From a virus, in IMG/VR virus record IMGVR_UViG_3300000553_000189, positions 9,136 to 32,065 of that record: 22,930 nucleotides of DNA. One strand, given 5' to 3'. A program made the position numbers and the translations under genes. Positions within the stretch are counted from its first letter, which is position 1. Each line of letters opens with the position of its first letter. The notes beneath the pieces were generated by a model, which was not told where the DNA came from, did not search any database, and worked only from the letters and a program-made list of their open reading frames with translations. Positions 5,072 to 19,098 of this stretch are shown here, one piece after another.

Positions 5072-6000
5072 TAACTACGAGCCCAAACGATGCGGTATTG
5101 ATCGAGAAGGTCGTAGGCGGCCATCATGTCTTCGGCAGAAGATTGAGCCTTTGGAGTTACTGCTGATGGTTCACCAAGTTCATTAATAATTAAGCCACCT
5201 TGACCTCGTTGCTTAACAAGAGCAACTACAAAGTGAATTACTGCTTGTTTTATAGTTGCTGGCATTGCTGAGAAATTAACTCCTCGCCCATGCTTGAACT
5301 TTGTTGGGTTGACCAAAGGAACAGTCGTGCTTCCAAATACGAAAGAAGAATCGACTTGAACATACTCATCAAGCATCCCATCCCAGATTGTCATGTTCAT
5401 ACCCGGGAAGATTCCTGTCGAATCATTGATAGTGATTTCAGTCGATCCAGCAGGCATGACATCAGTCGTAAATGAGTTTGCCCAACCATTGATGTATGTC
5501 CATTCAGCAAATAATTCTGCATCAGGAGCCCAATTACCGCCAGCGATTGTTATTGGTCCGACAGAAAGTCCGATTGAAGATGCATACGTCACGATAAATT
5601 GCTCTCGTTCGATTGAGCAAGTATCAGGTGTGATGGTCACGTCATACAGTCCTTGTCCGGGTCCCCAGCCAATCATGAAATTAGTGACAGCAAGAATTGG
5701 GGTGAAATACGGATTGATGATGACTTGTCCCAAGCGATTTGGGCGATAGCGACCATTTTCAGTATTGTAAGTTGCATTCAAGGATCCGTATTGACCCATG
5801 CAATGAAGGTCTGCCATTGCAGATGCTCGAACAATCAATTCAGTAAGCGAGCGATCTTGAACGGCGGCGGATCCATTCTCGACAAGATTTGAAAAATCAA
5901 CTGCTGATGCTGTTGCAGAAAACTTAACTTCTTCAAGTGAGACATAAGGCTCGATTCGACCTGATTGGAGGATCCATGAAGCGGTTGCCATGTTACTCAT
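5071..6000 (-). CDS. Head-tail connector or head-associated protein (309 aa)
   Basis: This protein starts MSNMATASWILQSGRIEPYV and lies directly between the capsid region and the tail terminator-like gene. Features seen are a helical N-terminal part around residues 45-65 (AAVQDRSLTELIVRASAMAD), a beta-rich middle with GSTEITINDSTGIFPGMNMT and YVQVDS typical of phage particle proteins, and a helical C-terminus (IKQAVIHFVVALVKQRGQGG, then AEDMMAAYDLLDQYRIVWAR). The C-terminal helices recall head-tail adaptor proteins of the gp6/gp15 kind, enlarged by an extra beta domain. I cannot assign it more closely. The start overlaps the preceding gene by eight bases; a second ATG three codons later is possible. 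Confidence 0.6.
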   Translation of the reverse strand: MSNMATASWILQSGRIEPYVSLEEVKFSATASAVDFSNLVENGSAAVQDRSLTELIVRASAMADLHCMGQYGSLNATYNTENGRYRPNRLGQVIINPYFTPILAVTNFMIGWGPGQGLYDVTITPDTCSIEREQFIVTYASSIGLSVGPITIAGGNWAPDAELFAEWTYINGWANSFTTDVMPAGSTEITINDSTGIFPGMNMTIWDGMLDEYVQVDSSFVFGSTTVPLVNPTKFKHGRGVNFSAMPATIKQAVIHFVVALVKQRGQGGLIINELGEPSAVTPKAQSSAEDMMAAYDLLDQYRIVWARS

Positions 6001-6259
6001 CAGATGATCCTTCTGCTATTAGTTCAGTCCCCCCACATTTACCACACTTGTCTCGATAAAGTCCGATGAAATTGCATGCTTTACAGATCCAACCATTTGT
6101 ATTTCGAAATGTAATACCAGCCACAGCAAAGTCTCCTGATTTTTTAAGAAGAGTCGCTTCTGGTCCCGACACATTGAATGTGCCATCTTTCGAGCGATTG
6201 ATTACTTTATTCCCGACCTCAACTTGTTGAAGTCCTCTGTCACTACCTACGAGTCTCAT
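5993..6259 (-). CDS. Small zinc-ribbon protein (88 aa)
   Basis: I choose the ATG at 6259 (MRLVGSDRGLQQVEV) because an AGGGAG ribosome site lies nine bases before it. The longer open frame from 6325 would begin inside a strong hairpin and read through it. The C-terminal part has a clear four-cysteine zinc-binding pattern, WICKACNFIGLYRDKCGKCGG at about residues 58-78, a rubredoxin-like knuckle pair. The N-terminal part is beta-like and Val/Gly/Asn-rich. Location between the capsid and connector genes suggests a head-related or a cleaved accessory protein. No named family is recognised. Confidence 0.75.
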   Translation of the reverse strand: MRLVGSDRGLQQVEVGNKVINRSKDGTFNVSGPEATLLKKSGDFAVAGITFRNTNGWICKACNFIGLYRDKCGKCGGTELIAEGSSDE

Positions 6260-6274
6260 GGATCCATTCTCCCT

Positions 6275-6322
6275 TAAATAGAGAAACGGTGCAAGGGTCA
6301 GGGGAGGCAAACCCTTGCACCG
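6275..6322 (-). terminator. Terminator-like hairpin after the major capsid gene
   Basis: On the minus strand a perfect 12-base stem, CGGTGCAAGGGT pairing with ACCCTTGCACCG, has a 12-base loop and is followed by TTTCTCTATTT. It begins about 50 bases after the capsid stop. The strong G+C-rich stem in an A+T-rich context fits an intrinsic terminator or partial attenuator. The T tract is broken, so some transcripts probably read into the connector and tail genes. Confidence 0.7.
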
Positions 6323-6371
6323 CATTCTCTAGTGCTAAACGATTACTCGATTAGCGATGTTGTACCAATCG

Positions 6372-8018
6372 TTATGAAACGATGTTGGTGATCGCACCAC
6401 TCCACGCAGGGGCGCGGAATGCGAGTGTTCCGTACTGGTATGTGCTGATGTCCCAACTGAGTTGGATCTGTGGCCATTCCAATACGATCATGTCCTGAAC
6501 GTTAACTACCTGAACAGTCTCAGAAACTCCTGAGTCTGGGAAAGGAAGTGTCTTGCTGTGAATCAAAGCAACACCAGCAGGCATGTATGGGTGAGCAACA
6601 ACGTCAACCATCTTGCCTGTTGATTCATTCTGAATCGCAGTTACGACTGAACCGATTGTGATTCCATCGCTTCCTGTCTGGTAGTTCAAGCGGTATCCGG
6701 TAGGAGTTCCTTCCTGCTGAATGCTGGCCGCCAATGACTTACGAATTGATGCAGTCGTAAGAATCATGTCTGGGTCAGCAATAACTGAGGAGTAGAGATC
6801 ATAGAAGATCGTCTGGAAGTCATTGCCCGGTACTGCTGTGTTCAATGGTCCGTTCAACTGAGTCACCGCTCCTGCAAGCGCAGGGTTAGTAAGAGTTGAA
6901 ACAAAGCCAGAGTATCCAAGTGGGTTTCCTGATCCATTGTCAGCAGATGTTGATGGCAGAGCCGATACAACTGCAAACACAGAAGGAGAGTCACCATTGC
7001 TTAGAACAGTTGTTCCCTTATAGATAGAAGTTCCATCAACGTAAGTGTTTACGGCAATAGTTCCTACTGGGATGCTGTTAATTGTCAAAGCAACACCCTC
7101 ACCTGATGATGTTGAAACCGTTCCAGCAGAAATAGCCTGCGATTCACCAGCAGAAGATGAGAATGTAACGTAAACATCTGCACCTGACTGAGATGGCATG
7201 CCACTTGATGATGGAAGTGAAACTGCGCTTGCGCTTGCAGTTACACCAGCAATGCTGGTGACAACTGAGTTTGCGTTCAGCATGTTGCGTTCTTCTCCGA
7301 GCATGTGAGCCCAGATAGTTGAAGTGTGCGACAACTGACGAAGATCGGTGTAACCCTGACCAGCAAATTGCGCTGTCAAGTCAACCTGGTCAGAAACACC
7401 TTGGTTAACGTGAGACAGAACAATCTTGTCTGCGGCGTATTCGATCTTGCTTGGGCGGTTAAGCGTTACAGGTCCGAACTGAGCAGTTGTGCCAGTTGGG
7501 TTGAAGAACGTACTCATGTTTGGTACGCCACCTGTGTTCGAGTTTGTCACACCAAGGATGCGGCGGAACTCGTATGCCTGACCAATTCCACCGATGCGGC
7601 TTGTTGAGTTACGAAGAATGAATGAGCGAGGAACAAGAAGTGCCAATGCTGGTTCAAGGTCGTAAGGAACAAGACCAGTAACACCAGAGGTCGAGTTGTC
7701 AAGAGGGTTAGTAAGTGTCCACTCTGATCCAGCCTTAGTTACATCGCTGACACGATCAAGTGCAGATGTGATGTCACCAAGTTGTTCAGCAGACATTCCT
7801 TTTGTTACGAGGTCACGGATTTCACCAATGCGCTCAGAAACAGAAGCAGACTTTTCCAACTTGTTGCCACGAAACTGAACTGTTCCAGTCTTTGCGGCTC
7901 GAATTGAATTGGTCTGGCAAACGCTGAGTGCTGATTTGTATGCCTCGAAACGATCAATGCGCTGTTCAGCAGGAAGTCCGCCAAACAACTGATCTAATGA
8001 TGGGGCTGTAAATGCCAT
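6372..8018 (-). CDS. Major capsid protein, HK97 fold with inserted beta domain
   Basis: The 548-residue protein begins MAFTAPSLDQLFGGLPAEQR and follows the protease-scaffold gene. Residues 1-110 are helical and charged, resembling a delta or scaffold-like N-terminal segment. A GLVPYDLEPALALLVPRSFI stretch (about 115-135) and the GIGQAYEFRRILGVTN segment match the start of HK97-type capsid domains; C-terminal parts include DMIVLEWPQIQLSW and YGTLAFRAPAWSG. Between about residues 255 and 375 is a Ser/Gly/Thr/Val-rich stretch (for example GADVYVTFSSSAGESQ, TINSIPVGTIAVNTYVDG) that looks like an Ig- or fibronectin-III-type domain inserted in the capsid fold. The ATG is nine bases after an AGGAG, which is itself part of a small inverted repeat. 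Confidence 0.9.
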   Translation of the reverse strand: MAFTAPSLDQLFGGLPAEQRIDRFEAYKSALSVCQTNSIRAAKTGTVQFRGNKLEKSASVSERIGEIRDLVTKGMSAEQLGDITSALDRVSDVTKAGSEWTLTNPLDNSTSGVTGLVPYDLEPALALLVPRSFILRNSTSRIGGIGQAYEFRRILGVTNSNTGGVPNMSTFFNPTGTTAQFGPVTLNRPSKIEYAADKIVLSHVNQGVSDQVDLTAQFAGQGYTDLRQLSHTSTIWAHMLGEERNMLNANSVVTSIAGVTASASAVSLPSSSGMPSQSGADVYVTFSSSAGESQAISAGTVSTSSGEGVALTINSIPVGTIAVNTYVDGTSIYKGTTVLSNGDSPSVFAVVSALPSTSADNGSGNPLGYSGFVSTLTNPALAGAVTQLNGPLNTAVPGNDFQTIFYDLYSSVIADPDMILTTASIRKSLAASIQQEGTPTGYRLNYQTGSDGITIGSVVTAIQNESTGKMVDVVAHPYMPAGVALIHSKTLPFPDSGVSETVQVVNVQDMIVLEWPQIQLSWDISTYQYGTLAFRAPAWSGAITNIVS

Positions 8019-8444: not shown

Positions 8445-9680
8445 GTAATCATCTCCTGATTCGGTTGTTGTTGAGAATGGTTCAGTTGTTTCTTCTTCTT
8501 CTGCTTCCTTCTCCCACCAGCAAAGGAAAAGATCCAATGCTCGAGTTAGTTCATAAATGTCACAGATTTCATTTTCTTCACCTGATGCCATTTCATCAAG
8601 TTCTGCTTTGATTAGATTGATGAGCGATTGGCGAACGGCGGCAAGATCATCAGGATCATGCTCCATCTTTTCAACATCTGCTTCAACATCTTTCCAATTA
8701 TCAGGCAGAAGATCTTCTTTGCCAAGTGCTTCCGCTCTCGCTTTGATGTGAGCCTTAGTTGCGGCTTTGTCTTTGGCGCGCCCAAATGCTTTGATTGCAT
8801 TTTTTAAGTCGCCAACGGTCTTAATTGGGTATGAACCATCTGGCAATGCTTGACCTTTGTCTGCAAGATTCTGCCGTTGCTTGTCGGAGTAATCCTTTTT
8901 TTCTGTTTCTGCTTCAACTGCTTTGTCATCGTCATCTTCAATAATGTTAGGAAAATCATTGCCCGGTGTAATTACTTCTGCTGTTGATTGACCTGATCCG
9001 CCACAAACTTCGCATGTTGCACCCATCTGCATCGTTCGACCTGTTCCGTTGCATCCTGCGCATGGGCGAGCCGCAGGGTATTCAGAAGGATCATCTGAAT
9101 TAGCAATCGAATGTTCTTCGTTGTAAATGACTTCTTGCTGAATTGATCCAGCATCATGAGTCATCTGAGTATTTGGAATAACTTCTTGCATGTCAAGAGT
9201 TTTGGTGATTTCTAATTCTCCGCCATTTATTGCTTTTGCAATGCCAACTGTGGCTGTCGGATTTGCTGGTCGGTCAACGAGCGAAACTTCAACAATCTGT
9301 CCGCCAACAATGCGACCATTAGGCGCATCTTCTGATTTGACGATCCTTGCGCCTTTGATTCCGATTGAGTATCCCTTGAGAACACCCTTTTCAACTTTCT
9401 TTTGAGTGCCAGAATCGACGACTTCTGATTTCAAATACCAATCTTCACCATCTGCGTTGAGTTCTATTCCGACTCCGGCGGCGATTGATGCATGCATCTC
9501 TCGAACATTTGCGCCAGTTGCCAACCATTGTGGCATTGCTGTCTTGAGCCAATCAGCATCGCAAATCTGCTGGTCGAGATCTAGGTCTGGTCCAGTTGCT
9601 TTGCCGTAAACGAACATTGATCCGTCTTCGGTTGATTTGTACGTTAAGTCTCCGAAGCCAACGTAGGTAATGTCGCTCAT
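8043..9680 (-). CDS. Prohead protease with C-terminal scaffold region
   Basis: The start is set at the ATG at 9680 (MSDITYVGFGDLTYKS), preceded by AGGAG at eight bases; the open frame extends further up but into the portal gene. Residues about 1-160 form a HK97-type prohead serine protease: the His region EMHASIAAG near residue 62, the Ser region VLKGYSIGIKG near 105, and the conserved VEVSLVDRPANP near 135. A double CxxCxGxG zinc finger (CAGCNGTG and CEVCGGSG) follows at about 207-230. Next is a helical Lys/Ala-rich block, DKQRQNLADKGQALPDGS and onwards at about 265-330, seen in other phage protease genes. The C-terminal 133 residues are coiled-coil-like and probably scaffold. Protease cleaves scaffold and capsid during prohead maturation. 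Confidence 0.88.
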   Translation of the reverse strand: MSDITYVGFGDLTYKSTEDGSMFVYGKATGPDLDLDQQICDADWLKTAMPQWLATGANVREMHASIAAGVGIELNADGEDWYLKSEVVDSGTQKKVEKGVLKGYSIGIKGARIVKSEDAPNGRIVGGQIVEVSLVDRPANPTATVGIAKAINGGELEITKTLDMQEVIPNTQMTHDAGSIQQEVIYNEEHSIANSDDPSEYPAARPCAGCNGTGRTMQMGATCEVCGGSGQSTAEVITPGNDFPNIIEDDDDKAVEAETEKKDYSDKQRQNLADKGQALPDGSYPIKTVGDLKNAIKAFGRAKDKAATKAHIKARAEALGKEDLLPDNWKDVEADVEKMEHDPDDLAAVRQSLINLIKAELDEMASGEENEICDIYELTRALDLFLCWWEKEAEEEETTEPFSTTTESGDDYMAYIGLGVNADLIKSASLPEATDEIKSELRTEIVKALGLEETITTKAELSEAKEEINLLKAALDEVREMASPGGPVLRATQAQASKSADVERLQAEAGRFRKLAHEVVDPTMKSAYLNKAVELEADSKRISNN

Positions 9681-12528: not shown

Positions 12529-13893
12529 TCATTGTAGTGCTTTGCCACAACTTGAGCAATGTGTGTTCTTAACATCATTTGGCAGATCACAATGAGGACA
12601 TGGTGGAGCGACACTTGCAAAGAAGGCATCAGAAAATCCTCCTGCGCCAATTCCTAATTGAGTCAAGCCATGAACTAATGCATCAATGCGGTCTGGCGAA
12701 AAGTCTGCTTGATCCGAAACCCATGATGTCATCTGTTCTTCTAATTCAGGAAATACTCCATGATGAGAAACTCTGCCTTGCTCATACAATGCGCTGACGG
12801 GTTCTGCTCGAAGAACTTTTCCTCGCTTCGCAACTACTCCTCGGTATGGAATGTTTGGTCGCAACTGATGAATGATCGTCTCAATCATGTCACCGCCCAT
12901 GTTTGATTCTCCAACAATTCGGCTTGCTTGAAACTCATCGTAAGCATCAATCGCTCTCTGCGCCCATGCTTTTGGAGAACTTCTGCATGAACGATCTGCA
13001 AGAACATAACCTCTGCCGTCAATTCCTTTTCCAACAACAACTATGCCTGTCTCGTCTGAGTTTTCATTGCTTGTGGCGGCAGGGTCAATCGCTACAACAA
13101 CTCTTGCCATGTCGGGAACATCTTTAACTCGGCAATCTTCAATCATTTGCAAAGTCCATAATGCGCCGGGGGTGTCTTCAAGAACCTCTGCATACAATTC
13201 TTGGCGACCTAGGCGAGTCCCCTCATAGCGATTGCGCAGTTGTTGAAGGGCAGATGGCGCAAGATTCTTTGCATTATCAAATGTATTGCCTCGAATTAAT
13301 TTGACGGATCCATCATCTTTAGCGACTAATTCTTTGATCAACTTTTTGGGCTGAGGAGTCGTTGTAATAATAATTTGAGGTTGATCGCCCAATCGAAGCG
13401 TGAACTGTAATTGCTCATAGGTTTCGGGGTATCGCCAAGCCGCCAATTCGTCACACCATGCGCCATGAAATTGAGGACCTCGCAAGCGATCTGGTTCATC
13501 TGCGGAGAATAGTTTGATCAGGGATCCATTGGTCAATTTGATTTCGCCCATTGATCTGTTGTAATTGCGCATCGTTTTATAGTCTCGAAGAATCGGGACA
13601 AGACCTGATTCACCTTCTGCGCAAGTATCTCTCGCATCGCCAAATGTTGGTGCGACTACTGCCCAGCGAGTATCAGGGAAGCATGAAGCATTCCAAGCGA
13701 TCCATTCGGCGGCAGTTCTAGTTTTGCCTGCGCCTCGACCTGCAAGATACAACCATACCGACCATGTTTCATCTTCAGTCGGTAATTGCTCCGGTCTCGC
13801 TAATTCCTCGGTCCAAAGCAATCGCCTCGCCACGATTGGCTCGTATGATGGCTCGGATTCGCTCGAGTTCTCCAATAATGGTTCCTGAATCAT
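12529..13893 (-). CDS. Terminase large subunit
   Basis: I set the start at the ATG at 13893 (MIQEPLLENSSESEPS), with GGAGG nine bases upstream; the frame is open further but lies deep in the small subunit gene. The 454-residue protein has the packaging ATPase Walker A motif LAGRGAGKTRTAAEW near residue 55, Walker B in FHGAWCDELAAWRYPE near 155, and a TTTPQPKKLIKEL coupling segment. The nuclease domain starts at VVAIDPAATSNENSDETG near 265 with its first catalytic Asp and continues to DALVHGLTQLG. At the extreme C-terminus is a zinc-ribbon, CPHCDLPNDVKNTHCSSCGK. It cuts and pumps DNA into the prohead. The gene overlaps the small subunit gene by 119 bases. Confidence 0.95.
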   Translation of the reverse strand: MIQEPLLENSSESEPSYEPIVARRLLWTEELARPEQLPTEDETWSVWLYLAGRGAGKTRTAAEWIAWNASCFPDTRWAVVAPTFGDARDTCAEGESGLVPILRDYKTMRNYNRSMGEIKLTNGSLIKLFSADEPDRLRGPQFHGAWCDELAAWRYPETYEQLQFTLRLGDQPQIIITTTPQPKKLIKELVAKDDGSVKLIRGNTFDNAKNLAPSALQQLRNRYEGTRLGRQELYAEVLEDTPGALWTLQMIEDCRVKDVPDMARVVVAIDPAATSNENSDETGIVVVGKGIDGRGYVLADRSCRSSPKAWAQRAIDAYDEFQASRIVGESNMGGDMIETIIHQLRPNIPYRGVVAKRGKVLRAEPVSALYEQGRVSHHGVFPELEEQMTSWVSDQADFSPDRIDALVHGLTQLGIGAGGFSDAFFASVAPPCPHCDLPNDVKNTHCSSCGKALQ

Positions 13894-14245
13894 AAACTGT
13901 CGCCTCCACCTGCATTCGTGCAGGAGCATACAAACCACGATACTTCGCTCGATGCTCCATAATTTTCAATACTCGATCTAATGCAACGACATCGCCATTA
14001 ATTGCTTTTGCCCAATAGACACGCTGTAAACGATCAAGACGATCTAGTTCTTCTTCCCTTGCTTCTTGGGCTCCTGCTTCATTCAGAGTTCGCTTCAATG
14101 CTCTTTTGTATGCGAGCAATGCGCCCTGGGCACTTGCATAACCAGTTGCTTTAGCAATCTCGTCATACGTCACGCCCATTCGCCTTAATTCAAGGACTTG
14201 GCGTTCTTTGTCTATCAATTCTGGATCAGGATTTCTATTGCTCAT
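13775..14245 (-). CDS. Terminase small subunit
   Basis: The 156-residue protein has an N-terminal helix-turn-helix: DKERQVLELRRMGVTYDEIA then KATGYASAQGALLAYKRALK, the DNA-recognition layout of small terminase subunits. Residues 55-110 are highly charged helices (AREEELDRLDRLQRVYWAKA, then VALDRVLKIMEHRAKYRGLY), the oligomerising region. It lies directly before the large subunit gene with a long overlap. Its ATG is overlapped by the stop of the preceding 32-residue ORF (ATGA). It should bind the packaging site and hand DNA to the large subunit. Confidence 0.9.
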   Translation of the reverse strand: MSNRNPDPELIDKERQVLELRRMGVTYDEIAKATGYASAQGALLAYKRALKRTLNEAGAQEAREEELDRLDRLQRVYWAKAINGDVVALDRVLKIMEHRAKYRGLYAPARMQVEATVYDSGTIIGELERIRAIIRANRGEAIALDRGISETGAITD

Positions 14246-14340
14246 GTATCTACTGTATCTGCATCATTGAAGCCTTTTAGAAATTGAATGAACTCGTCTG
14301 CCGTCATCGGGTCGCTGATCCATTCTTCATCTTCTGACAT
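14242..14340 (-). CDS. Small acidic ORF between FolE fusion and terminase (32 aa)
   Basis: The frame begins at ATG 14340, four bases after the FolE stop, and its TGA overlaps the terminase small subunit ATG. The peptide MSEDEEWISDPMTADEFIQF is strongly acidic and continues LKGFNDADTVDT. No clear ribosome site precedes it, so expression would depend on coupling to the FolE gene. It fills an otherwise empty 100-base gap exactly. I recognise no family. It may be a real small protein or a translational bridge into the packaging genes. Confidence 0.5.
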   Translation of the reverse strand: MSEDEEWISDPMTADEFIQFLKGFNDADTVDT

Positions 14341-14344
14341 GCAA

Positions 14345-15235
14345 TTAGTCTTTGTGATGGCTTAGGAACTCGGCTCTAGTTTCTGGCTCATCTCGCATTG
14401 CACCAAGAAGCGATGAGGTCGTCATCTTTGCGTTTGCTTTTCTAATCCCTCTCATGCCCATACAAGAATGATGAGAGGTAATAACCACCCCACAACCCAA
14501 TGGTTTGAGGATGTCTTGAATTGAATGGGCGATTTGTTCAGTCATGCGTTCTTGAACTTGAAGGCGGCGAGCATACATTTCAACTAATCGAGCCAATTTT
14601 GATAGCCCGACAATGGATCCATTTGGTATGTAACCAACTGTTGCATGCCCAGTAAATGGAAGCATGTGATGTTCGCACATTGAACTGAACTCGATGCCAG
14701 AGACAACAACCATCTCATCGCAGGCTTCATCAAAAGTGGTCGTCAAAATCTCGGTATCTATTTTCTCATACCCATCAGTAAGTTCTTTAAATGCTTTGAT
14801 TACTCGCTTGGGAGTTTCGATCAAGCCTTCTCGCTTTGGATCTTCACCGATGTATTCAAGAATCCTGACAACTGCTTCTTCGGGACCGCTTTCATTTGCT
14901 TCCCAAGGGAATACGATCCAGTTATCAATGACTTTGGCATGAGGAGCAAGATGCGATGGCGAATGCGATTTACGAAACAAAGCATCAAACTGATGGTATT
15001 CAGATGCTGTCCTGCCAGAGTCAACAAGATCATCAACAACTAAGCAACCGCCGTTGTATTCATCGAGCAATGGGACTCCGAGGATCTGAGCGACCATGAT
15101 CGCAACATAAGTGCCGCCTCTTGGAACACCCCAAACGCCGGAAATTGGCTGAGTATCCCATCTGCCGGCTAATTCCCTTGATAACTGCTTTAACTGCTCG
15201 AAATCGGCGTATAACGGCATTTCAGGGCGTTTCAT
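14345..15235 (-). CDS. folE: Gpt-like phosphoribosyltransferase fused to GTP cyclohydrolase I (FolE)
   Basis: I choose the ATG at 15235 (MKRPEMPLYADFEQLKQ), with GAGG nine bases upstream inside the end of queE. Residues 1-112 look like a compact xanthine/guanine phosphoribosyltransferase: a DFEQLKQLSRELAGRW helix, GVWGVPRGG (33-41), the PRPP loop CLVVDDLVDSGRT (64-76), and DNWIVFPWE (104-112), which recalls the base-pocket end of Gpt. The usual hood region between PRGG and the PRPP loop is short. Residues about 115-296 are GTP cyclohydrolase I with zinc ligands C187, H190 and C258 (SSMCEHH; HHSCMGMRGI). FolE turns GTP into dihydroneopterin triphosphate, the first step to preQ0. It is the last modification gene of the operon. 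Confidence 0.88.
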   Translation of the reverse strand: MKRPEMPLYADFEQLKQLSRELAGRWDTQPISGVWGVPRGGTYVAIMVAQILGVPLLDEYNGGCLVVDDLVDSGRTASEYHQFDALFRKSHSPSHLAPHAKVIDNWIVFPWEANESGPEEAVVRILEYIGEDPKREGLIETPKRVIKAFKELTDGYEKIDTEILTTTFDEACDEMVVVSGIEFSSMCEHHMLPFTGHATVGYIPNGSIVGLSKLARLVEMYARRLQVQERMTEQIAHSIQDILKPLGCGVVITSHHSCMGMRGIRKANAKMTTSSLLGAMRDEPETRAEFLSHHKD

Positions 15236-15237
15236 GA

Positions 15238-15948
15238 TTAGTGACCTCTTTCGGATCCCCACAAAAGAATGTGAAGACGATACGAGAAGTTCATGCCATT
15301 CTGAATTGCTAATTCTGCAACCCATTTCGCTTTGTCATTAATTTCTTCAAGCGTTCGACCCTCTGGCATCAAATACGTCTGCTTGCGAGGCAATTTCAAA
15401 TCAAGGATCTCATCAATGTCGCTTGGATCTGTTATGACAAACTTGAAAATTGAATTGAGCGGGTATGAAGCGAGAGCCTTTGGGCGGATCCCATTGCCAT
15501 TGCCAGAACTTAATAACTTTGGAGAAATGTTCCAGCGTGTTCCAAGTGGCGCACCAATAGGGTAGGGGCGAGTCCCATTAGTCTCAACTTCTGCGCTGAT
15601 CCCGACAAGTTCGAGTGCGTTGAGTAATCGAATCAATGCTCTGCTTTGAACTAATGGCTCGCCACCGGTTATGACAACATGATTGGCAAAGCGGACTTCG
15701 TCAACCACATTGGCGATCTGCATGACTTTTTCTTCTTGTTTCTTGTCAAACTTTTTCCCATTTTTGCCCGACCAGTCCCATGTGTAGGGAGTGTCACACC
15801 ATGAGCATTCGAGATTGCATCCACTTAGTCGAATAAACCAACATTGTTTACCGACAGATGCGCCCTCGCCTTGAAGTGTCGGTCCAAAGATCTCTGAGAC
15901 TCTCAAACTTGAAGCAAGATGGGCTGAAATTGCGACTTCGTAACTCAT
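15238..15948 (-). CDS. queE: 7-carboxy-7-deazaguanine synthase (radical SAM)
   Basis: QueE turns 6-carboxytetrahydropterin into 7-carboxy-7-deazaguanine (CDG). The 236-residue protein has the family opening LRVSEIFGPTLQGEGASVG at 15-33 and the radical SAM cluster motif CNLECSWC with C44, C48 and C51, followed by DTPYTWDW, a hallmark of QueE. Further motifs are HVVITGGEPLVQ near 92-103 and VETNGTRPYP near 121-130. About 14 residues precede the normal family start, but the ATG overlaps the queD stop as ATGA, so I keep it. Its stop lies two bases before the FolE fusion start. The fold looks complete. Confidence 0.95.
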   Translation of the reverse strand: MSYEVAISAHLASSLRVSEIFGPTLQGEGASVGKQCWFIRLSGCNLECSWCDTPYTWDWSGKNGKKFDKKQEEKVMQIANVVDEVRFANHVVITGGEPLVQSRALIRLLNALELVGISAEVETNGTRPYPIGAPLGTRWNISPKLLSSGNGNGIRPKALASYPLNSIFKFVITDPSDIDEILDLKLPRKQTYLMPEGRTLEEINDKAKWVAELAIQNGMNFSYRLHILLWGSERGH

Positions 15949-16391
15949 TCGACAATCGCTTTCGATGTCGGAGTTTCCCAGACTTCAATTTTGACAAGCC
16001 TGATGTTATTTCTCCAATGACTTTCAATGATAGGAGCAAGCCGATCAAAGATGTCTTGAGCCATGTTTTCAGCAGTCGGGATGAAAGGAACGATGACGAT
16101 CTTCCAATCCGGCGATCCATGCTCCAATGATGAGCGCATAATGTCATCATTTTCATAAACGACAAAAGCGTGATCATAAACATCGTGAACGTATTCAGTC
16201 ATCCAAGCCTTTAGGTCTGAAAAATCAACAAGCATGCCATTGTCGGCGGCTCCATCTTCATTAATTAATTCACCAGCGCATGTTGCTCGGACACGATAGC
16301 GATGCCCATGCGGATTGAAGCATTTACTGGCATGATCTGGGACGCGATGCCCTGTATCAAACTCGACTTCTTTAGTTAAGGACATTCTCAT
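15945..16391 (-). CDS. queD: 6-carboxytetrahydropterin synthase
   Basis: QueD converts dihydroneopterin triphosphate to 6-carboxy-5,6,7,8-tetrahydropterin. The 148-residue protein has the expected zinc site, H15 in FDTGHRV and H28/H30 in NPHGHRY, with the catalytic Cys at C24 (SKCFNPHGH). The DHAFV motif, a PTAENMAQDIF helix with its Glu, and the C-terminal VWETPTS Glu that binds the pterin are all present. Length is normal for a QueD with a moderately long insertion around 85-105. GGGGAG lies just before the ATG, which overlaps the queC stop (ATGA). All active-site elements that I know are kept. Confidence 0.95.
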   Translation of the reverse strand: MRMSLTKEVEFDTGHRVPDHASKCFNPHGHRYRVRATCAGELINEDGAADNGMLVDFSDLKAWMTEYVHDVYDHAFVVYENDDIMRSSLEHGSPDWKIVIVPFIPTAENMAQDIFDRLAPIIESHWRNNIRLVKIEVWETPTSKAIVE

Positions 16392-17113
16392 TGTTCTCCC
16401 CTTTTATGTTTTTCAATCGCTTCCCATGCGAAATCGTAATCTTCGTAAAGAGTTGGATCCTCTACACCTGACAGCATAAAGGCTTCTCTGCGCTCAACAC
16501 AAGTGCCACATCTGCCACAATGAATCTCGCCACCTTTATAGCAACTCCAAGTATCATTCCAATCAACATGCATTGCATGACCTAATGCGGCAATGTAAGC
16601 CTTGTCAGTCGTTATGAATGGGGAATAGATTCCTTCAAATGCGCCTTCAGTAAAGAGATCATCGGCGGCCAAAGACATCGCCATACTAAGCGCATCAACA
16701 AAAGCAGGTCTGCAATCTGGGTAAATAAAATGATCGCCACCATGAACGGCTGTTGCAACAAAATGCGATCCAATGTTCATTGCGGCTCCTGCGGCGATTG
16801 ACAGCATTATTGCATTGCGGTTCGGCACTACTGTTTGTCGCATCGTTAAATCTGCAAAGTGACCATCAGGAACTTCTTTGCCAAAAGTCAATGCTGAAGA
16901 AGTAATCAATTCCGTAATGCCAGTCAGATCAATGATTCGATGTTCAAATCCTAATTTCTTGCAAGTTATTGCAATAAAATCAAGTTCTTTTTTATGCCGT
17001 TGTCCGTAATCAAATGACAAAACAAGAGTCTCAAATCCTCTCTCATTTAAATCATACAGAAGAACCGTTGAATCCATTCCCCCTGATGCAATCGCAACTG
17101 CTTTATCTTTCAT
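16388..17113 (-). CDS. queC: 7-cyano-7-deazaguanine (preQ0) synthase
   Basis: QueC turns CDG into preQ0 using ATP and ammonia. The 241-residue protein starts MKDKAVAIASGGMDSTVLL with the PP-loop SGGMDS at 10-15. It keeps VVPNRNAIMLSIAAGAA near 95-111, VHGGDHFIYPDCRP near 123-136, and a C-terminal zinc site with C191, C199, C202 and C205 (CYKGGEIHCGRCGTC). No amidotransferase extension (as in Gat-QueC fusions) is present. Ribosome site AAGGAG lies before the ATG, which overlaps the DpdA stop by four bases. It should be fully active. Confidence 0.95.
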   Translation of the reverse strand: MKDKAVAIASGGMDSTVLLYDLNERGFETLVLSFDYGQRHKKELDFIAITCKKLGFEHRIIDLTGITELITSSALTFGKEVPDGHFADLTMRQTVVPNRNAIMLSIAAGAAMNIGSHFVATAVHGGDHFIYPDCRPAFVDALSMAMSLAADDLFTEGAFEGIYSPFITTDKAYIAALGHAMHVDWNDTWSCYKGGEIHCGRCGTCVERREAFMLSGVEDPTLYEDYDFAWEAIEKHKRGEQ

Positions 17114-18036
17114 GTCATCTCCTTCAATAGCGGCGCAATAAGTCGAAGATCTTGAGGTGTCAGAACGTTATGAACATTGATGCCATTTTGCCCATCGGAT
17201 CCAAATGAAGGTGCGCTAATTTCACCAAAGCGTTTGCGCAAAAACTTTTGCAGATTGACAGAACTTCTGGCGGCGAAATAAATAACGAGCCCCCAATTTT
17301 CAGGTGTTGAAGTCGAAATCTGAGATGGGTTGAGATCATAGAGTCTCTTTAGTTCATCTTTGAGCAAATAAGCATCTTTTCCATTTGCTTGATACTGCCA
17401 TCGTTTAAGAGAACGATCATCGTGAAGAACAAAACTGCCCCACCGTTGACCGCTTTTAAATGCTGATGAATCAACAGAATAGAAAGGAACTTGAGATACA
17501 AGCCGAGTGCCAGAGCATCCCCAACCATGAAATCTAACTTGAGGATGATGATCTCTGACGTATCGGAATACTTCGACAAACCATCGAAGTAGATTCTTTG
17601 CGTCTCGAACTCCAACGGATCCGCCAAGTCCAAAGAAATCAATACTTGAATCAAATGCAATGTATTTGCTAATTAATGTCGGCGAGGCTGGATAATGAAT
17701 TGTTGGAATTATGTCAAGACCTTTGTTGCGCAAGTATTTAAAGTTTTCAAATGAACCATCTGCATCGCCAATAACATCAAGCGATGCCATCCAGCAAACA
17801 TGATTTTTAACAACATGACACCACTCTGCGTATTCATCAATGTCAATAACTGCGCCAATGCTTGCGACAGAGTATGCCCCGGAATCTGCAACAAATCGAT
17901 ACCCGAGTTTTGATAATGCAATTACTTCTTCTGGCTCTGACACCGTATGAAATGAGAGAAGCGCATTGAATCGTTTAGGTATTGTCAGCGTTGTATCTGC
18001 AAGAAGAATTGCTTGCCGGGCTGAGGAAGAACTCAT
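17110..18036 (-). CDS. dpdA: DpdA-like DNA 7-deazaguanine transglycosylase
   Basis: The 308-residue protein belongs to the tRNA-guanine transglycosylase-like group used by phages to place 7-deazaguanines in DNA. Visible motifs are FVADSGAYS (catalytic-site Asp at D51), DVIGDADGSFENFKYL, an FFGLGGSVGVRD glycine loop at 134-145, and FHGWGCSG leading to FYSVDSSAF with the likely nucleophile D189. The four-ligand zinc site of bacterial Tgt is not seen, as is usual in short phage forms. It follows a ParB-like gene with an ATGA overlap and precedes queC likewise. Next to a full preQ0 pathway, DNA is a more likely substrate than tRNA. The exact DpdA subfamily is not determined here. Confidence 0.85.
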   Translation of the reverse strand: MSSSSARQAILLADTTLTIPKRFNALLSFHTVSEPEEVIALSKLGYRFVADSGAYSVASIGAVIDIDEYAEWCHVVKNHVCWMASLDVIGDADGSFENFKYLRNKGLDIIPTIHYPASPTLISKYIAFDSSIDFFGLGGSVGVRDAKNLLRWFVEVFRYVRDHHPQVRFHGWGCSGTRLVSQVPFYSVDSSAFKSGQRWGSFVLHDDRSLKRWQYQANGKDAYLLKDELKRLYDLNPSQISTSTPENWGLVIYFAARSSVNLQKFLRKRFGEISAPSFGSDGQNGINVHNVLTPQDLRLIAPLLKEMT

Positions 18037-18596
18037 GTGACCTGATCGAGCAATCGATTCAATTTTTCATCATCGCTGAGGCTTGGATCAATGAATGCTG
18101 ATTTCCAACGATTCAATGTTGCTCGAGTTACTTTAAGAAGAAGCGAGTATTCATCAGGGACATCTTGAGTGTTGCCTATTTCATTCGCTAATGCATCAAG
18201 ATCGGGTGGAGTTAATTGATGCAAAAGATCAGTCACGTCTTGCTCGATGTATCCTGTGCCAGCCAAATCAATGTCGCTAATCATTGCAAGCAATAATTCA
18301 GGATCGTATGTTCCTAATTGCGAAGTTCGATTGGCCGCTAAAGAATACGCTTTTGCAGTCGCTTCATCCATGTCAACAAAGATAACTTCTAATGAATCCC
18401 AACCAAGTTGTTTGGCGGCATCAAGTTGATGATTACCATCAATGACGATTCCAACCTCATCGCCTGTTCTTCGAGCAACGATTGGTTTGACTTGCCCAAA
18501 GCGAGAATAGGATTCTGCAATCGCATCAACATCTCCCATTCGAGGATTGCCTGCTAAATGAGCAAGATTATTTAACGGAACTCTAACTGGCTTCAT
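18033..18596 (-). CDS. ParB/Srx-like N-terminal domain protein
   Basis: The 187-residue protein starts MKPVRVPLNNLAHLAGNPRM and has the ParB/sulfiredoxin domain: the NPRMGDVDAIAESYSRFGQV opening, then the IVIDGNHQLDAAKQLGW motif around residues 50-66 that binds nucleotide in this fold, and TAKAYSLAANRTSQLG near 85-100. The C-terminal part (about 150-187) has a helical YSLLLKVTRATLNRWKSAF segment. Single ParB-domain proteins like this are often found in phage DNA modification loci and are annotated as nuclease or CTPase. Its place as the first gene of the modification operon, overlapping dpdA by four bases, suggests help in target choice or strand access; this is inference. GGGGAGG lies just before its ATG. 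Confidence 0.82.
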   Translation of the reverse strand: MKPVRVPLNNLAHLAGNPRMGDVDAIAESYSRFGQVKPIVARRTGDEVGIVIDGNHQLDAAKQLGWDSLEVIFVDMDEATAKAYSLAANRTSQLGTYDPELLLAMISDIDLAGTGYIEQDVTDLLHQLTPPDLDALANEIGNTQDVPDEYSLLLKVTRATLNRWKSAFIDPSLSDDEKLNRLLDQVT

Positions 18597-18612: not shown

Positions 18613-19098
18613 TTACATCTTTACTTCTAGCACAGAAAATGGTCTGCGAACAAGGGTGCAATGCGCTTCTGATGCTTTAAGCGCAGTTAGAACGCTTGCT
18701 TTGTCAATGTGGTCAGCATACAAGGAGCCAAATGCGACTGATGCGCCGGATCCTATTGCGTTGTATGCGCCGTCTGCATCGCCTCTTGATTCGATGACCG
18801 ATAAATCATCTTGGATTTCAAACAGTTTGCCTTTTTCAATAACAAGAAGCGACCATTCTGTTTCGGTTGTTTTGAATTGCTTAATAAATAATTCAATTTT
18901 TGGATTTTGCATTCTTTCAAATTGATCAAATGCTTGAGATCCTGCCTTCCATGATCCAGCAAAGCCAACTAACAGACCGCCAATGTTCTTAATTTTCGGC
19001 GTATTGCTGATCGTATACAGATTTTCATCATCAACAGAAATTGAATCACAACCCATGTATGCGCCGCTTTGAGTCACAAGCCCAACAACGCATGTCAT
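18613..19098 (-). CDS. HslV/proteasome-like Ntn hydrolase
   Basis: The 161-residue protein starts MTCVVGLVTQSGAYMGCDSI. After Met removal the N-terminus would be Thr, the nucleophile of proteasome-type peptidases. Counting that Thr as 1, Asp17 (GCDS) and a Lys at about 34-36 (TPKIKNIGG) match the T1/D17/K33 triad. LVGFAGSWKAGSQAFDQFER and the AYNAIGSGASVAFGSLYADH segment agree with the HslV/beta-subunit fold, including the AIGSG motif. It is slightly shorter than HslV, and no ATPase partner is seen in the window. The ATG overlaps the preceding small ORF's stop. It may be a stand-alone peptidase in infected cells or act with a host ATPase. It could instead be another Ntn hydrolase. Confidence 0.8.
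   Translation of the reverse strand: MTCVVGLVTQSGAYMGCDSISVDDENLYTISNTPKIKNIGGLLVGFAGSWKAGSQAFDQFERMQNPKIELFIKQFKTTETEWSLLVIEKGKLFEIQDDLSVIESRGDADGAYNAIGSGASVAFGSLYADHIDKASVLTALKASEAHCTLVRRPFSVLEVKM

Follow-up and report, generated by a model that had tools for sequence, protein, structure and literature searches.

The window, a stretch of 22,930 nucleotides (positions 9,136 to 32,065 of the IMG/VR virus record IMGVR_UViG_3300000553_000189) that belongs to a metagenomic contig of 32 kb, probably incomplete, encodes a protein in which a lidless phosphoribosyltransferase (PRTase) domain of the Gpt type is fused to FolE, GTP cyclohydrolase I. Both domains were assigned to their classes, the gene lies in a 7-deazaguanine operon, and the PRTase domain is linked to DpdA-type DNA guanine transglycosylases across many phages. 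We favour, with moderate confidence, the reading that this bifunctional enzyme salvages the guanine released by DpdA to GMP for phage 7-deazaguanine DNA modification.

The fusion gene (14345..15235, minus strand) starts with an ATG at 15235 and stops at 14345. A Shine-Dalgarno-like AAAGAGG (15251-15245) was found 9 bases ahead of the ATG, and the TAA of the preceding queE (15240-15238) lies 2 bases ahead of it. The product of 296 amino acids was modelled by AlphaFold2 with a pLDDT of 95.6 and a pTM of 0.82. Its architecture was as the first-pass annotation had described it: a PRTase domain of about 112 amino acids (residues 1-112; 14900..15235, minus strand), followed by a FolE domain (residues 119-296; 14345..14881, minus strand). 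The latter matched PF01227 over residues 119-294 (E = 5.4e-73) and model positions 2-178 of 179, and is therefore a complete catalytic domain. The candidate zinc ligands C187, H190 and C258 were kept, and C187, E188, H189, H190 and C258 were invariant among 69 fused proteins. An assembly artefact was rejected, since the full 296 residues recur at 100% identity in another IMG/VR contig and the PRTase domain at 100% in a second one, and the same domain order was present in about 75 other non-redundant loci.

The general Pfam PRTase family (PF00156) matched the N-terminal part alone with an E-value of 9e-4, under the Pfam cut-off. Better matches were obtained with phrog_8995, named 'phosphoribosyl transferase' (3.6e-9), and with the NCBIfam xanthine PRTase model PRK09177 (5e-9); 107 of 119 relatives of the domain also matched the NCBIfam xanthine PRTase model. 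A Pfam match to an SDF transporter (E = 1e-3) occurred in 3 of the 119 members and was rejected as chance. When a profile of the 119 relatives was compared with the PDB, purine PRTases ranked above every other PRTase class, with the Pyrococcus purine PRTase (6.5e-21), XGPRT (2e-17) and Sulfolobus GPT-2 (2e-15) as matches. The PRTase domain was also modelled separately (AlphaFold2, pLDDT 95.8), the alignments for structure prediction being made of the window and IMG/VR loci. Foldseek placed the fold closest to Gpt: ranks 1-24 against the PDB were all E. coli or Yersinia XGPRT, the best with an E-value of 6e-10. Several of these structures contain guanine, GMP or a guanine-based inhibitor, among them 1a95 (guanine and cPRPP) and 1a97 (GMP). 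The profile match of 6.5e-21 and the model-to-XGPRT match of 6e-10 put the PRTase assignment far beyond chance.

The three motifs quoted in the first-pass annotation were all present: PRGG (residues 38-41; 15113..15124), VVDDLVDSGRT (residues 66-76; 15008..15040) and DNWIVFPWE (residues 104-112), of which WIVFPWE covers residues 106-112 (14900..14920), all on the minus strand. PRGG forms loop I, the pyrophosphate loop, with G41 kept in 119 and G40 in 115 of the 119 relatives. VVDDLVDSGRT has the form of the PRPP loop, hhhhDDhhD(S/T)GxT, the third Asp of which serves as the general base. D68 was conserved in all 119 members, D69 in 118 and D72 in 116. We take D68 and D69 to bind PRPP and D72 to be this general base, which in 6-oxopurine PRTases is an Asp directed at N7. 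Adenine, uracil and orotate PRTases are not known to conserve an Asp at the D72 position, so the Gpt class call stands. By profile alignment, K89 (14969..14971, minus strand; Lys in 95 of 119) corresponds to the lysine of Gpt that binds the base O6, and W106 to the base-stacking Trp in the hood; W106 and W111 were both found in 119 of 119. With T76, these tryptophans and the three aspartates are nearly fixed in a family with a mean identity of about 25% over 119 members, and the motifs were altered in a few members (L146, L024). Fold, profile and residues thus bore out the proposed Gpt-like class, and the structure prediction gave no sign of another PRTase class.

One element of Gpt was missing. 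The spacing between the RGG and DD motifs was approximately 26 residues in the whole family, compared with 48 in bacterial Gpt relatives, and in the profile alignments a gap of 22-25 residues fell between these motifs. In Gpt, this segment comprises a beta strand together with flexible loop II. In type I PRTases, loop II is the lid that closes over the active site. The domain was therefore filed as Gpt-like in fold and not as a proven Gpt, and with the lid missing its catalysis is not assured. Brevundimonas phage MaInes encodes a Gpt-like PRTase of lid length (spacing 56; L160:9001-9486) directly behind folE, which is preceded by genes for RNR and a dNMP kinase, the kinase gene being just ahead of folE. 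The MaInes protein may be the older form. In a genome scan with a 7-row alignment, lidless Gpt-like PRTases were also found in contigs of the candidate-phylum bacteria Azambacteria, Yanofskybacteria and Lloydbacteria (L217:7614-8276, L228:7971-8384 and L231:7818-8390), with no que genes near them, which suggests that the lidless core can be retained for its own sake.

The operon of the window runs in the order ParB-DpdA-QueC-QueD-QueE-PRTase-FolE on the minus strand and is followed by terminase genes; its deazaguanine genes are contiguous (14345-18036). At its head is a ParB-like protein (18033..18596; phrog_723, 1.4e-33). The DpdA-type DNA guanine transglycosylase (308 amino acids, 17110..18036) matched phrog_7068 (1.5e-56) and phrog_887 (4.5e-31) and kept the DSGA motif in the alignment. 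Next to it are QueC, the preQ0 synthase (241 amino acids, 16388..17113; PF06508, 1.7e-55), which has no Gat domain, a QueD-like 6-pyruvoyl-tetrahydropterin synthase (148 amino acids, 15945..16391; phrog_2389, 2.4e-35; PF01242, 3.3e-30) and a QueE-like radical SAM protein (236 amino acids, 15238..15948; phrog_2076, 4.8e-54). Since neither Gat, ArcS nor QueF was in view in the window, the modified base of the virion DNA is predicted from the gene content to be preQ0. Just upstream of the operon, an ORF of 161 amino acids (18613-19098) resembles HslV/proteasome proteins (phrog_1040, 3.2e-18).

IMG/VR was scanned with two queries, the isolated PRTase domain and the fusion. Supplemented with GenBank examples, these scans yielded 130 non-redundant loci, 76 with fused and 54 with free-standing PRTases. 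The fetched stretch contained folE in 120 of these 130, compared with FolE matches in 393 of 50,697 phage records overall. In the IMG/VR scan with the PRTase domain alone, 71 of the 80 matches fell on folE loci. Where a free-standing PRTase occurred with folE (n = 45), all pairs were on the same strand and 28 were at most 150 bases apart. The coexistence of fused and neighbouring forms is classic evidence of a shared pathway. The fused label changed only 2 times on the domain tree, so recurrent independent fusion was rejected; a single old fusion appears to account for the data, at the low resolution of a tree with few columns and thin support. In Cellulophaga phage phi13:1 (loci L163 and L159 being phi13:1 and phiST), the PRTase lies about 20 kb from queD-queE-folE.

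GenBank fusions were found in Pseudomonas phage NP1 and relatives, Vibrio phages 033B, VpKK5 and 1.207.B, Stenotrophomonas phage ply2008005c and Sphingomonas phage MMDA13. In the regions examined, these genes adjoin DpdA and are annotated only as 'GTP cyclohydrolase'. In the record of Pseudomonas phage PaMx25 (JQ067084.3), a separate 'hypothetical protein' annotation (31426-31758) overlaps the PRTase half, so folE was probably given the wrong start there.

DpdA-type genes were detected with phrog_887, phrog_7068, phrog_19058 and home-made models. Such a gene lay within the stretch in 111 of 147 PRTase loci, and searches of whole contigs added five more (L033, L120, L122, L040 and L087), so that at least 116 of the 147 had one, either in the locus or elsewhere on its contig. 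Many of the remaining loci are on short or cut contigs. The phrog and home-made models found no DpdA-type gene in a few longer contigs (e.g., L016, L146 and L079), which may hold a type outside the models used. The Pfam TGT model PF01702 was discarded as a test of DpdA because it missed every phage record, known DpdA carriers included.

The reverse dependence was much weaker. Of 73 loci that combine folE with a DpdA like that of the window, 20 carried the fusion and 2 had a free-standing PRTase, whereas 51 had neither. Phages 9g, Laurie, RHEph04, nt-1 and others had no PRTase of this family in the whole genome. The PRTase thus foretells DpdA far better than DpdA foretells the PRTase, a pattern that fits a dispensable aid to base exchange, and its absence from 51 of the 73 loci marks the domain as an accessory that the pathway does not require. 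The first-pass annotation had tied the fusion to DpdA clusters, and the survey upheld this: the fusion was not common in phages without DpdA. The rarity that it had implied did not hold, as the fusion was found widely among the phages of GenBank and IMG/VR.

Three types of transglycosylase were distinguished: that of phrog_887/7068, present in the window and 9g; the short type of phrog_19058, present in Flavobacterium phage immuto; and a protein of 540 amino acids in Pseudomonas phage MIJ3. The 540-aa ORF is weakly similar to the short type and could, judging from this similarity, be a further DpdA type; a protein search with it gave no matches. It is close to a gpt-annotated PRTase gene that adjoins queE (L162:2044-3663 and 5995-6429). 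In PHROGs, phrog_19058 is of 'unknown function', and a member is annotated as DpdA in immuto. Members of this type (L006:8135-8929, L043:2142-2924, L077:2239-3042 and L046:2031-2822) are frequent in IMG/VR contigs beside folE/que genes and a free-standing PRTase. Gene product gp036 of phage phi13:1 is another, annotated as hypothetical.

A short transglycosylase of the phrog_19058/immuto type was likewise detected with a home-made model in Campylobacter phage CP20 (L177:14512-15309 (54512-55309), E = 2.8e-72). CP20 also carries a PRTase (162299-162712), with matches to folE, queC, queD and queE scattered over the genome. Campylobacter phages have been listed without DpdA though carrying dADG, and the group of CP20 was proposed to use modified dGTP (PMC6884629).

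Based on these findings and on known pathways, the fused enzyme would act at two points of a cycle. Its FolE half would convert GTP to dihydroneopterin triphosphate, the first step to preQ0, and QueD, QueE and QueC would complete preQ0, each molecule costing one GTP. DpdA would exchange guanine of the phage DNA for preQ0 and release guanine, which the Gpt-like half, if active and guanine-preferring, would join to PRPP to form GMP. Two steps by host kinases would raise GMP to GTP, to be fed back to the FolE half, and hand-over (channelling) between the two halves is conceivable. With free guanine removed, preQ0 would also face no competition from it in the reverse exchange. Assuming about 8,000 swaps per genome and about 100 genomes per cell, approximately 1 million GTP per infected cell would be involved. 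This equals about one cell's free GTP under the same assumed figures, so recycling could pay.

Guanine salvage is favoured by the Gpt class of the domain, its conserved catalytic residues and its linkage to folE and DpdA-type genes, by the position of the free-standing PRTase beside folE and of the lid-length MaInes protein directly after it, and by CP20, which combines a PRTase with a short-type transglycosylase in a group thought to have no DpdA. Against it count the missing lid in the whole family, the many DpdA phages that do without the domain, and the lidless PRTases of a few candidate-phylum bacterial contigs without que genes. Hosts mostly possess guanine salvage of their own, which likewise counts against it.

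The main rival is that the PRTase-like half is a sensor, which would bind PRPP, GMP or (p)ppGpp without turnover and tune FolE, in the manner of PurR and PyrR, regulators with a PRTase fold. We regard this as unlikely but worth serious consideration: the lid is absent, the binding loops are conserved, and the domain is joined to FolE, which catalyses the committing first step of the pathway. However, nearly half of the family is free-standing, which is ill-suited to an intramolecular control domain. The general base D72 is needless for ligand binding alone, and in MaInes the equal position is taken by an intact lid-bearing Gpt-like protein.

General purine salvage, in which xanthine, hypoxanthine and guanine would all be used to make more GTP available to FolE and to replication with no specific tie to guanine released by DpdA, seems improbable to us. 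The nearest structures do act on xanthine, guanine and hypoxanthine, and the lidless bacterial forms occur apart from que genes. Such an enzyme would, however, be expected in many phages without deazaguanine clusters, whereas the phage members are almost confined to these clusters, mostly with a DpdA-type gene.

We give still less credit to a PRTase that acts on the 7-deazaguanine base itself, joining preQ0 to PRPP so that the modified base could be incorporated as a dNTP. The PRTase travels with the preQ0 genes, and CP20, from the group with a proposed modified dGTP (PMC6884629), has one. This route is nevertheless needless where DpdA is present, and CP20 does carry a DpdA-type gene of the short family. 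In addition, the N7-facing Asp would have no partner in a 7-deazapurine; D72 suits guanine and not the 7-deazaguanines, because the latter have no N7. A decayed N-terminal half, or one that binds no ligand and is retained for structure only, as the lost lid and the altered motifs of L146 and L024 might imply, is hardly credible given motifs fixed at such low identity and the retention of a single old fusion.

Guanine salvage, if correct, can be widened to the proposal that base-exchanging phages have a dedicated recycling enzyme, a lidless Gpt that is often fused to FolE. Its missing lid would define a new subfamily by structure, in which a partner domain perhaps closes the site; we consider the chances of this broader proposal to be even. 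A literature search yielded no description of the fusion or of a PRTase in this pathway, which is weak evidence, as most subscription journals were outside its scope. FolE alone is mentioned in papers on MMDA13 and in general treatments of the deazaguanine genes of phages. The PRTase fold and the deazaguanine pathway are known; the lidless subfamily, the fusion and its role are undescribed within the literature searched. The finding adds a widespread component, unnamed in the fused records examined, to a well-studied DNA-modification pathway of phages, and it opens what becomes of the displaced guanine to direct testing. The PRTase also serves as a marker for unrecognised DpdA types, having led to the transglycosylase gene in CP20, whose group was reported without one.

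Compared with known PRTases, the domain shares with the E. coli and Yersinia Gpt (1a95, 4jls and 6kp5) the fold (TM about 0.8 by query), the PRPP loop, the N7-facing Asp, the base Lys and the W..PW(E/D) hood motif. Unlike Gpt (152 amino acids), it has no flexible lid loop, is about 112 amino acids long, is fused to FolE and lies in a phage operon. The purine PRTase of Pyrococcus horikoshii (1vdm) was the best profile match, with an identical WIVFPWE; both this enzyme and Sulfolobus GPT-2 (4z1o and 4zfn) differ from the domain in being stand-alone and in having the inter-motif loop. Among phage proteins, phrog_8995 (Flavobacterium phage immuto, Cellulophaga phage phiST) has an equal lidless domain, but as a separate ORF. 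In immuto it is near folE and the transglycosylase gene, and PHROGs gives phrog_8995 no deazaguanine link. The fusions of Queuovirinae and related phages (NP1, VpKK5, 033B, 1.207.B, MMDA13 and ply2008005c) are 40-45% identical overall to that of the window, but their records leave the N-terminal domain unnamed. The phage 7-deazaguanine systems of 9g, CAjan and Rosebush (PMC6884629) share the FolE-QueD-QueE-QueC-DpdA set with the window. In 9g and in Rosebushvirus Laurie, FolE is unfused, and no PRTase of this family was found in either genome. The gene order of Laurie, ParB-DpdA-QueC-QueD-QueE-FolE-terminase, equals that of the window at 12529-18596, which hints at an actinobacteriophage-like lineage for the window.
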